Under the pieces are notes generated by a model that saw only the letters and a program-made list of their open reading frames with translations, was not told the origin of the DNA and ran no database searches. The position numbers were made by a program, and so were the translations under genes. Shown piece by piece: positions 43,643 to 46,722 of a DNA stretch of 53,807 bases (positions within the stretch are counted from its first letter, which is position 1; each line of letters starts with the position of its first letter). The stretch comes from Burkholderiales bacterium (GTDB lineage Bacteria; Pseudomonadota; Gammaproteobacteria; Burkholderiales; Thiobacteraceae). The stretch covers positions 1-53,807 of the forward strand of contig JADMJT010000044.1 of the NCBI GenBank assembly GCA_018781585.1, given 5' to 3'.

Positions 43643-44740
43643 CTATCGGCTTAGTTTAGCCGCTTTGGCTTTTGGCGTAATAAACGCTTTATGAAATAGG
43701 TGGCGAACCAAAAGCCAAGGTGGCATGCGCAGCCAGTGGCCGCGCAGATAGAGGAGAAAATGGGCCAGCGGCGTAAGGGCGTCGGCGCAACTGGCGTGGT
43801 TGGGGCGGAAGCCTTGCGCCGCCAGCCAGTCCATCGAGAAGCGAATAGGGAGCATTGGTTTGCCGTGCTCAATCGCGTGTCGCGCCGATTCGGGTACCGG
43901 TGTGCCGAGCAACCGTGAAGCGTAGCGTAGACCATAGAACAAAGGGCGGCTGAGTTCGAGTATTTGCGCGCGTGGGAATAAAGTGTCCCAGAATGCTGGG
44001 TCGGTGCCGAAGTGCCGCAGCAGGCCGTCGAAATCGATCAGGTCGCGCAGCGAGCGATTGGTCTCGCCCTCATGGAACAGGTGCGTGGCGCAGTGCAGCA
44101 CCATATCCCAAGGCGCGAGCACGCGGGCGCGCGGATCCAAGGCGGATGGCCGTGAGCCTTCGAGCAGCAGCGCGGCATCCGGGTGATAGCGTGCCGTCAA
44201 CGGCAGGATGTTGTGGTGCACGTCAATCACACTTTGCCGCCGCACATGCTCCAGCGGCGGAATCTCATGCATCCACTGGCGATAATAGCGCTGGTCGTAA
44301 GCATTGATTTTCATCGGCGCCCAGCCATACTGCATCAGCGCGGCTTCGATAGCCTCGATCTTTTCTTTCGGCACCAGAATGTCCACGTCGCTGAAAATTC
44401 GGCCCGCGGCTACGGGAAGGCCGGCAGCGACATAGGCCGCGCCTTTGAGGAAGACGATGGGGGCGTCCACCGCTTCCACGGCTTCCAGTATTCGCGCGAT
44501 TTCCCAACGCAGTGCCTCATGATGGCGATTTGCGACGAACAGCGCGGTGTCCAGGTGACGTCGGATGGGTTCGGGCGTCCGCTCGATATAGCCGGCCTCA
44601 CCCAAGACATGACGTAGGCGCGGGGCCAGGCCGGCACGACGTGCCTGACGAATCAGCAGATCCCACTCGATTTCGTTGAGATGAGCGGTGTGCGCGGGGT
44701 CGCATAGCGACTGACGGAGAAGATGCGCGTCAGATGGCAT
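43643..44740 (-). CDS. nucleotidyltransferase of the HprK-related kinase A cassette
   Basis: A 365-residue protein with PF14907-type nucleotidyltransferase features: FLKGAAYVAAG (about 97-107) and the metal-binding SDVDILVP (Asp118, Asp120). The C-terminal part is helical. Homologs lie beside PqqD-like and HprK-like genes. It starts with ATG 11 bases inside the kinase gene, so the two are translationally coupled. The moiety transferred is not known. It is last in the cassette. Confidence 0.87.
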   Translation of the reverse strand: MPSDAHLLRQSLCDPAHTAHLNEIEWDLLIRQARRAGLAPRLRHVLGEAGYIERTPEPIRRHLDTALFVANRHHEALRWEIARILEAVEAVDAPIVFLKGAAYVAAGLPVAAGRIFSDVDILVPKEKIEAIEAALMQYGWAPMKINAYDQRYYRQWMHEIPPLEHVRRQSVIDVHHNILPLTARYHPDAALLLEGSRPSALDPRARVLAPWDMVLHCATHLFHEGETNRSLRDLIDFDGLLRHFGTDPAFWDTLFPRAQILELSRPLFYGLRYASRLLGTPVPESARHAIEHGKPMLPIRFSMDWLAAQGFRPNHASCADALTPLAHFLLYLRGHWLRMPPWLLVRHLFHKAFITPKAKAAKLSR

Positions 44741-45647
44741 GGGGAGCAGCCAAGTCAGCGAAGGTGGCGATGGCGTCGTCCAGTCGGCTGTAAGTGAAAT
44801 CGAAACAGTCGCTCTGTGCGATCAAGCGCGCCAGCGCATCGTATCCCAGTGTGCCGAGTACGCTGTAGTTGAAGGCGTTTTCAGCGAATTGAATGAGCGC
44901 GTGCCCCTTCGGGTGGGGCGTGAGCAACGGCGGTGAATCGGGCACGTATTTTGGAAAGATCACCCAGCGTGGCGTGGCGGGTTCATGTGCTCGGGCGACA
45001 CTGTCCGCGGAGGGCTTCATGTGCGCGACCGTGCCCTTGGCGGTGTCTTGGGCCAAAGGACCGAAGACGGCGTCTGGCGCGAAGCTGCGAATGATATCGA
45101 TGGAGGTATTTTTCAGGCTGACAGGCCGCGCCAGTGCGTCGATGCGGCCGCTGTGCGGATTGATCAAGGTCAGCTCATCGGACAGCAGTCGCCAGCCGCG
45201 ATTGACTAAGGCTGCGCACAGCGTGCTTTTGCCGGAACCGGGCGGGGCGGGCAAGATCGCCGCGAATCCATTTTTCTCTACCACTGCTGCATGCAGAATG
45301 AGATACCAGTGGGCGTGGCTCGTCACGCACCAGTTAAGCCCCCATTCCAGCATAGGAAAGGCGTGATCGTAGGGCAGAGGTTTAAACGGAATGAAATCGT
45401 CGAACGCGAACAAGACTTGGGGGTGATACCAGCGGCGCAACCCTGCCGGGCGCAGCAGGCGAACATGAAAATCGCTAAAGCTGCCTTCCGGCGCGAGAGG
45501 GTGATCGGCGTAAAGCGTGCCAATGCCTTCCACTGCAGCAGGGATGCGCGTCTGTATGCGCGTAGTGAATTGTCCGGTGCGCAAGGACAGGCCAGGTCCG
45601 GCCAGTGCTCGCGCAAGTTCGCTAGAAGAGAGGTGCGATAGATTCAA
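44730..45647 (-). CDS. HprK-related kinase A
   Basis: A 305-residue kinase-like protein related to HPr kinase. A P-loop PAPPGSGKSTLC (about 133-144) and a Walker B-like LLSDELTLI (154-162) are clear; the N-terminal ~110 residues are a separate domain. HprK enzymes phosphorylate serine; the kinase of the lasso peptide paeninodin, also HprK-like, phosphorylates a C-terminal serine. The start codon is TTG, overlapping the stop of the PqqD-like gene by 4 bases (TTGA), which implies translational coupling. It has no HPr partner gene nearby. Confidence 0.9.
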   Translation of the reverse strand: MNLSHLSSSELARALAGPGLSLRTGQFTTRIQTRIPAAVEGIGTLYADHPLAPEGSFSDFHVRLLRPAGLRRWYHPQVLFAFDDFIPFKPLPYDHAFPMLEWGLNWCVTSHAHWYLILHAAVVEKNGFAAILPAPPGSGKSTLCAALVNRGWRLLSDELTLINPHSGRIDALARPVSLKNTSIDIIRSFAPDAVFGPLAQDTAKGTVAHMKPSADSVARAHEPATPRWVIFPKYVPDSPPLLTPHPKGHALIQFAENAFNYSVLGTLGYDALARLIAQSDCFDFTYSRLDDAIATFADLAAPHAI

Positions 45648-45940
45648 GGATGAACGGGCTCGATCAATTGAACCCGTTGCAGGGAAGCGAGCGCATTTTC
45701 GAAGGCCTGTACGCTGTCGGAGTCCAATTCTGCGGACGCCTTCCCGGTAATGCTGCTGGTCAATTCTTCGAGACTTAAGGGCTGTCGAAGCAGACAGGAT
45801 AGGACTTCGCCGGTGAGGTGGTCAAGCAGGTGGGTGTCGCCGGTGCCGCTGTGGAATGCGGTGTATCCATCTTTCCAAGCGTGGCTACGGAGCACATAGC
45901 CCGTCGCCATTCGCCAGCGAACAGGTAACAAACTGCTCAC
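45644..45940 (-). CDS. PqqD family peptide-recognition protein, HPr-rel-A system
   Basis: A 98-residue PqqD-like protein: ATGYVLRSHAWKDGYTAFHSGTG, then DTHLLDHLTGEVLSCLLRQP and a C-terminal winged-helix-like part. PqqD proteins are RiPP recognition elements that bind precursor leader sequences. It starts with GTG 3 bases after the stop of the Cys-rich gene with no clear ribosome site, so it depends on upstream translation. The member type is HPr-rel-A. Confidence 0.87.
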   Translation of the reverse strand: MSSLLPVRWRMATGYVLRSHAWKDGYTAFHSGTGDTHLLDHLTGEVLSCLLRQPLSLEELTSSITGKASAELDSDSVQAFENALASLQRVQLIEPVHP

Positions 45941-45943
45941 GCG

Positions 45944-46624
45944 CTACGACTGGTAATTGCCGTGGGCGTCGTAGCCGCAATAGAGGGTGTTATATTTATC
46001 CAGGTCGGTTTTCAACTGATTAAAAGCCGAGGCGCAGTCCTTATAGGTCTTTGCGGCCGTGTAGGCATTCTGGTACGCCGTGATGATTTTTTCCGGCGTA
46101 TCGTAGTTGGGCAGGTAGCGCCACGCGAAGGTGGCGGCATTGCAGATCGCCGCAACCGCATGGAAGGAGCAAGTCTGCACCTTGGAGGTGAAGCCGGTGC
46201 CGGAGCTACTCCCAGAGCAGCACGCCGACGATTGAAGTACGGTGGCACTCTGATTTTGCATTACTGCAATATCGAGCAGGGTTGTGTTGCTGTTGAAAAC
46301 TGTGCAACCGAAGACCGTGTTGAACTTCATGGAGGGCAAAAAGCGATGGTCGGTCAGTTTGTCCCACACTTCAGGATGCTGGCCCCAGTACCCAGGGCTG
46401 CAACCGCACTGGACGTTGCTCTGATGGTTGGACAAATTGCCGGAGAGTAGGGCCGATTTTGTGCATTCGTTGGTACCGCCTGTGGCGAGCACCGGGTGGC
46501 TTTTTAGGGTCAGGATAACGCCGGAACCGACAGCCGCGCCGGCCAGCCGGCGACGCGTTTGATCGACACCATCGGCGGACTGTTCGCTCTTCAATTCCTT
46601 ATTGCCTTGCTCAATCTCGCTCAT
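45944..46624 (-). CDS. Cys-rich exported protein with Tat-like signal, candidate cassette substrate
   Basis: A 226-residue protein. The start at 46624 is set by AGGAG 8 bases upstream; a longer frame to 46687 begins near the promoter start. A hydrophilic N-terminus (about 1-22) leads to TRRRLAGAAVGSGVILTLKS, a Tat-like signal with cleavage likely near VLATGG. The mature part has 10 cysteines, including QCGCSPGYWGQHPEVWD (the SPGYW motif seen in exported proteins) and a CC pair. The last residue is serine (GNYQS). Composition (Asn, Ser, Thr, Cys) is unlike its neighbours. It is first in the cassette. Confidence 0.75.
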   Translation of the reverse strand: MSEIEQGNKELKSEQSADGVDQTRRRLAGAAVGSGVILTLKSHPVLATGGTNECTKSALLSGNLSNHQSNVQCGCSPGYWGQHPEVWDKLTDHRFLPSMKFNTVFGCTVFNSNTTLLDIAVMQNQSATVLQSSACCSGSSSGTGFTSKVQTCSFHAVAAICNAATFAWRYLPNYDTPEKIITAYQNAYTAAKTYKDCASAFNQLKTDLDKYNTLYCGYDAHGNYQS

Positions 46625-46692
46625 TCGATGTACTCCTGCTTCCTGCGGGTTGGGCTTCGGCCAGTACGTTGCGCCGGTATTAGCCATTGATT

Positions 46693-46722
46693 ATTATAAT
46701 TATAAAGCAAATTGCATTCCAA
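46693..46722 (-). promoter_or_regulatory. candidate promoter of the HPr-rel-A cassette
   Basis: On the minus strand TTGGAA (46722-46717), 18 bases, TATAAT (46698-46693). A second TATAAT overlaps at 46704-46699. The predicted start of transcription is about 60 bases before the Cys-rich gene, so the cassette may have its own promoter. Confidence 0.6.

Follow-up and report, generated by a model that had tools for sequence, protein, structure and literature searches.

A kinase cassette of the HPr-rel-A type in a Burkholderiales bacterium and its likely full-size exported substrate

Gene organization and enzymes of the cassette

The window, which is the whole stretch of 53,807 nucleotides that was analysed, carries a co-transcribed four-gene cassette on its minus strand at 43643-46624. 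The first gene (45944..46624) encodes the candidate substrate, a class A (GYW domain) protein of 226 aa with ten cysteines and a twin-arginine leader. It is followed by the genes of a PqqD-like discrete RRE (TIGR04353; 45644..45940, GTG start), an HprK-related kinase A (TIGR04352; 44730..45647, TTG start) and a PF14907 nucleotidyltransferase (NTase; 43643..44740, ATG start). A gap of 3 bases separates the first two genes, the PqqD-like and kinase genes overlap by 4 bases, and the kinase and NTase genes overlap by 11; this arrangement had been described in an earlier note on this DNA, and its order, coordinates and spacing were all confirmed from the sequence. The substrate gene was read from the ATG at 46624, which has AGGAG 8 bases before it. 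An alternative in-frame ATG lies upstream at 46687 and would give 247 aa, but the start at 46624 was favoured because many relatives have the RR at residue 24, and all residue numbers below refer to the 226-residue protein. On either side the cassette is flanked by housekeeping genes (gcvP halves, DAGK and glutaredoxin; prmC, prfA and hemA), and therefore neither a cyclase nor a lasso protease adjoins the cassette, as the earlier note had said.

All three enzyme-side proteins scored above the family cut-offs: 50.3 bits for the PqqD-like protein against TIGR04353 (cut-off 35), 399.8 bits for the kinase against TIGR04352 (cut-off 200), and 194.9 bits for the NTase against PF14907 (cut-off 31.2). 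By score, the kinase and PqqD-like genes are thus members of the HPr-rel-A system of NCBIfam (TIGR04352, HprK-related kinase A; TIGR04353, PqqD family peptide chaperone). The NCBIfam names specify no substrate for this system, and the RR-leader proteins described below (classes A, B and C) fall under no model of NCBIfam or Pfam. The AlphaFold model of the PqqD-like protein had a pLDDT of 91, and its best Foldseek matches were leader-bound lasso RREs (5v1v, E 6e-4; 5v1u; 6jx3), with TbiB1-leader complexes at the top, which predicts for this protein the fold of leader-binding lasso RREs. The kinase is a remote relative of HprK and has the catalytic residue H119, the P-loop G137-S-G-K-S-T142 and D157-E158; H119, K140, D157 and E158 were identical in 151/151 sequences. 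It has DE where HprK and the lasso kinases have DD, with E replacing the second Asp. In the NTase, K99, G100, R114, D118, D120 and D173 were invariant or nearly so.

Conservation of the cassette and its exported protein

A search for kinase relatives found 280, and 80 of their loci were fetched. The results showed the NTase in 80/80 of these partly redundant loci, the PqqD-like gene in 78/80 and an RR-leader protein directly upstream in 77/80, an arrangement far beyond chance. The earlier note had stated that homologous loci lacking the adjacent gene would refute its proposal, and on this check the proposal was not refuted. Among the three exceptions, L047 sits at the end of its contig, L056 has an interrupted reading frame, and the third is L011. 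At L011 the kinase and NTase are intact, and the PqqD-like and RR-leader genes were not found within 8 kb; it is possibly a decaying or trans-acting system. Taking all fetched flanks together, the RR gene was not seen at kinase loci L011, L119, L120, L126, L138 and L153. Across 300 genomes of the order, many of them draft assemblies, the leader-bearing protein was present in 35, all of them kinase-positive and with the kinase within ~2.5 kb, which corresponds to 35/50 kinase-positive genomes vs 0/250 kinase-negative ones (p 4e-34). The system of substrate, kinase, RRE and NTase is widespread, and these sequence comparisons strongly support the upstream gene as the probable substrate of the tailoring set.

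The most conserved part of the exported protein is its leader segment R24-A47 (RRRLAGAAVGSGVILTLKSHPVLA; 46484..46555, minus strand), in which the RR is invariant. The class A leader follows the pattern RR..[FL]...[GA]L......TLASRPV[LW][AG], with the RR in 100% of members. Conservation in class A fell from 2.75 bits per column in the leader (RR...RPVLA) to 1.77 in the mature protein and 1.13 ahead of the RR, and the corresponding values in class B were 3.10, 2.03 and 1.31. Such a profile looks like that of a recognised leader, here coinciding with a twin-arginine signal. The earlier note had proposed that the PqqD-like protein reads the hydrophilic N-terminal segment; that segment is variable and the least conserved part of the protein, and it was rejected as the recognition segment in favour of RR...RPVLA. 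When 41 relatives were searched with the leader only, strong matches (E < 1e-7) were exclusively to the cassette protein, and no convincing case of the leader on another protein in trans was found among them. As for Tat export, the RR is followed by a hydrophobic segment and a cleavage-like site, and tatC is present in the genome (234 bits); the Pfam TAT_signal model matched 1/74 members, weakly (E 0.06). The first 50 residues of the window substrate contain neither Y nor W, and this leader thus lacks the YxxP/WxxP motif of the lasso and LPP RREs.

The mature part of the protein, residues 77-226 (45947..46396, minus strand), is a predicted helical domain (SPGYW...AAxxN), and the AlphaFold model of the substrate likewise showed a helical domain after residue 77. 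Neither Pfam nor NCBIfam matched the window substrate, a fold comparison of its model with the PDB gave no match at E < 0.001 (best E 2.3), and a profile search against PDB sequences found nothing. A homologous SPGYWKNH...AAxLN domain was observed inside four large repeat-rich surface proteins with SdrD-like repeats or DUF11/DUF7507 (L162, L163, L164 and L165), and no Pfam family was reported for it in the L163 protein. These DUF11/SdrD-like proteins differ from the class A proteins in having no RR leader and in not lying beside the kinase.

In distant Pseudomonadota, where the kinase occurred in 61/398 sampled genomes, the RR leader was retained and the mature part was exchanged for unrelated cores. 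Class B proteins have ~110-130 residues and end in ...SCW[TSG]SF, class C proteins carry ...TC[FY]ASLQMPRG, and further smaller groups exist; neither Pfam nor NCBIfam matched the three representatives of classes B and C that were searched. At L166 and L167 the substrate gene is found downstream, and at L117 it is divergently oriented. At L174 (genome G014), the RRE and a class B-like substrate stand together ~2 kb from the kinase and NTase, so the four genes can be divided into two pairs. The kinase tree predicted the substrate class, with 3 class changes over 76 kinases vs a shuffled mean of 25.8, near-copies having been removed beforehand and shared ancestry contributing to the class clustering; class A formed one clade (97), as did class C (100). 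The earlier note's central proposal, that the enzymes have a full-size exported protein and not a lasso peptide as their substrate, was supported: the gene next to them is conserved, confined to kinase-positive genomes and co-inherited with the kinase clade, and an RRE fold is predicted for the PqqD-like protein.

A neighbour-gene survey, mostly yielding antisense artefacts, was nevertheless the source of the exopolysaccharide genes of the XrtA/PEP-CTERM system (EpsB_2, PrsK and PrsT), which adjoin ~20 class A loci. EpsB_2 was present in 47/50 kinase-positive vs 35/250 kinase-negative genomes of the order (p 1e-28, phylogeny not corrected for). In the sample of the phylum, an exosortase accompanied the kinase in 12/13 genomes of the class A lineage, 12/12 of the class C lineage and 7/36 of the class B lineage, where the lineages follow taxonomic grouping and the core of G024, one of the 13, is of another kind. 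For class B, the association with exosortase is weak. In the window genome, EpsB_2 and PrsK lie on another contig, and the exosortase-family match is weak (30.9 bits in a 204-aa frame; G000:C120:1782-2132, L190). LPP and paeninodin clusters have also been found in capsule loci (PMC13381572). A role of the protein at the surface together with exopolysaccharide is plausible from this gene content.

The same linkage would also fit a glycan role, in which a phosphorylated small molecule or a precursor of a glycan is the product of the kinase and the NTase, whose family PF14907 is uncharacterised, and the RR protein is not their substrate but an exported partner that the operon only co-expresses. 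We regard this reading as unlikely, since a discrete RRE, exchangeable cores and an N-terminal segment that is leader-like, exclusive and co-inherited together make up the architecture of a precursor, and RRE-associated relatives of HprK modify peptides (PMC10368454, PMC13381572).

Candidate acceptor serines

Between the leader and the helical domain, residues C54 to S65 (46430..46465, minus strand) form the segment C-x-x-S57-x-x-x-S61-G-N-x-S65, which is predicted to be disordered and contains the candidate phospho-acceptor serines. In class A, S57 and S61 were invariant and S65 was present at 93-98%, the three serines being spaced four residues apart directly after the predicted cleavage site. 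Residues 1-65 of the substrate model had a pLDDT of ~50, and the model places no secondary structure near the serines. Because invariant residues stand here in a predicted disordered segment, the cluster suggested a modification or binding site. The S65 codons of class A were TCN in 50 cases and AGY in 43, indicating that this serine was retained through codon-class changes; nearly all S57 and S61 codons are TCN. L006 has lost the conserved Cys and retains the serines, and the homologous domain of the four large kinase-unlinked DUF11/SdrD-like surface proteins has no such cluster. These patterns suggested that the conserved serines are probably phosphorylated before export, although they could alternatively serve structure or export.

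The latter roles would fit a PqqD-like protein that is chiefly a Tat proofreading chaperone masking the RR signal, with the serine cluster as a folding or docking site and modification as a minor matter. The conserved segment does coincide with the Tat motif, and Tat chaperones of such logic exist for redox enzymes. This explanation nevertheless appears quite improbable, as it accounts neither for the constant presence of a kinase and an NTase whose active sites are intact nor for the absence of the serine cluster from the kinase-unlinked relatives.

In the non-A classes, 43/44 proteins carried the motif [CA]-[WFYLI]-x-S-[FLIV] within the C-terminal 40 residues, its Ser being invariant and 1-16 residues from the end, compared with a mean of 0.7 and a maximum of 6 in a shuffle control, which shows enrichment and not independent confirmation, the motif having been defined from the same sequences. 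A near-C-terminal acceptor may thus hold in those classes, and not in class A. The earlier note had proposed that the C-terminal Ser226 (GNYQS; 45947..45949, minus strand) is the modified residue of the window protein; paeninodin-type kinases do act on a C-terminal Ser (PMC9266682) and classes B and C have their invariant Ser near the end, but such phosphorylation is highly improbable in the window protein and Ser226 was rejected as its acceptor, for even the nearest relatives, with kinases 67-70% identical, lack it and end in GNHR and GNPIP, and only 13/105 class A proteins end in Ser. S57, S61 and S65 are likelier candidate acceptors than the C-terminal Ser.

Proposed mechanism and relation to known systems

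The closest known systems are the LPP and the phosphorylated lasso RiPPs. BsfK phosphorylates Ser3 of a lasso precursor, requires the leader and is accelerated by the RRE BsfB1 (PMC10368454); LPP RiPPs combine an HprK-like kinase (LppK), an RRE (LppB) and an NTP transferase (LppN), and their core Ser3 is phosphorylated (PMC13381572); and PsmN, a nucleotidyltransferase homologue, adds a hexose to phospho-Ser (PMC9266682). Since the same three activities are present by family, the cassette probably works in a similar way to these systems.

With LPP (Popov et al. 2026, PMC13381572), the cassette shares the HprK-like kinase, the discrete RRE, the NTP transferase and the absence of a cyclase, as well as a conserved N-terminus with a variable C-terminus, a phospho-Ser (here a candidate) near the leader and frequent occurrence in polysaccharide loci. 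Only LPP has its own SipW-like leader peptidase, an MsbA-like exporter, a YxxP leader and an origin in Bacillota, whereas the present system has an RR leader without Y or W, presumable Tat-type export, mature proteins of ~100-230 residues and an origin in Pseudomonadota. Neither an SpI-like leader peptidase nor an MsbA-like transporter was found in the cluster, whose neighbours are of the housekeeping kind. With the phosphorylated lasso peptides (paeninodin, pseudomycoidin and BsfA), it shares the HprK-like kinase, the RRE and the nucleotidyltransferase, and it differs from them in having no macrolactam cyclase or B2 protease, no conserved C-terminal acceptor Ser and a full-size protein as its putative substrate. 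On peptidase, transporter, cyclase and leader motif, the cassette falls outside both the LPP and the lasso groups.

We therefore propose, as the likely reading, that the cassette performs a RiPP-like tailoring of a full-size exported protein, comprising leader-guided Ser phosphorylation, an addition by the NTase, Tat export and a surface role. The PqqD-like RRE would bind the twin-arginine leader of the precursor and recruit the HprK-related kinase, which would phosphorylate one or more serines, in class A S57, S61 and/or S65 in the flexible segment just past the leader. The PF14907 enzyme would then extend the phosphoserine by a nucleotidyl or sugar group. Once modified, the protein would exit via Tat, a signal peptidase would cut off the leader, and the product would act at the cell surface, where the XrtA/PEP-CTERM exopolysaccharide system is its most likely partner. 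A further extension of this model, which we offer tentatively and consider doubtful as a whole, is that the Tat signal doubles as a RiPP leader: the RRE would hold the Tat signal until a phospho-sugar has been built on serines of the folded protein, making export conditional on modification, and once outside the phosphoglycoprotein would anchor or prime XrtA-linked exopolysaccharide, with one toolkit serving several unrelated protein families.

The enzymes have already been named as a system in NCBIfam, and no report of a substrate was found in the open-access literature searched, which yielded no paper on HPr-rel-A, on HprK-related kinase, on the combination of HprK, PqqD and nucleotidyltransferase, or on PEP-CTERM with HPr kinase; the RRE-mining literature examined does not mention HPr kinases. 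A likely substrate has now been identified in more than 100 loci, in at least 3 unrelated mature-domain classes and with specific candidate serines. If the proposal holds, leader-guided tailoring in the RiPP style reaches beyond peptides to whole Tat-bound proteins, and the exported protein might be a missing protein partner for the XrtA/PEP-CTERM exopolysaccharide system.
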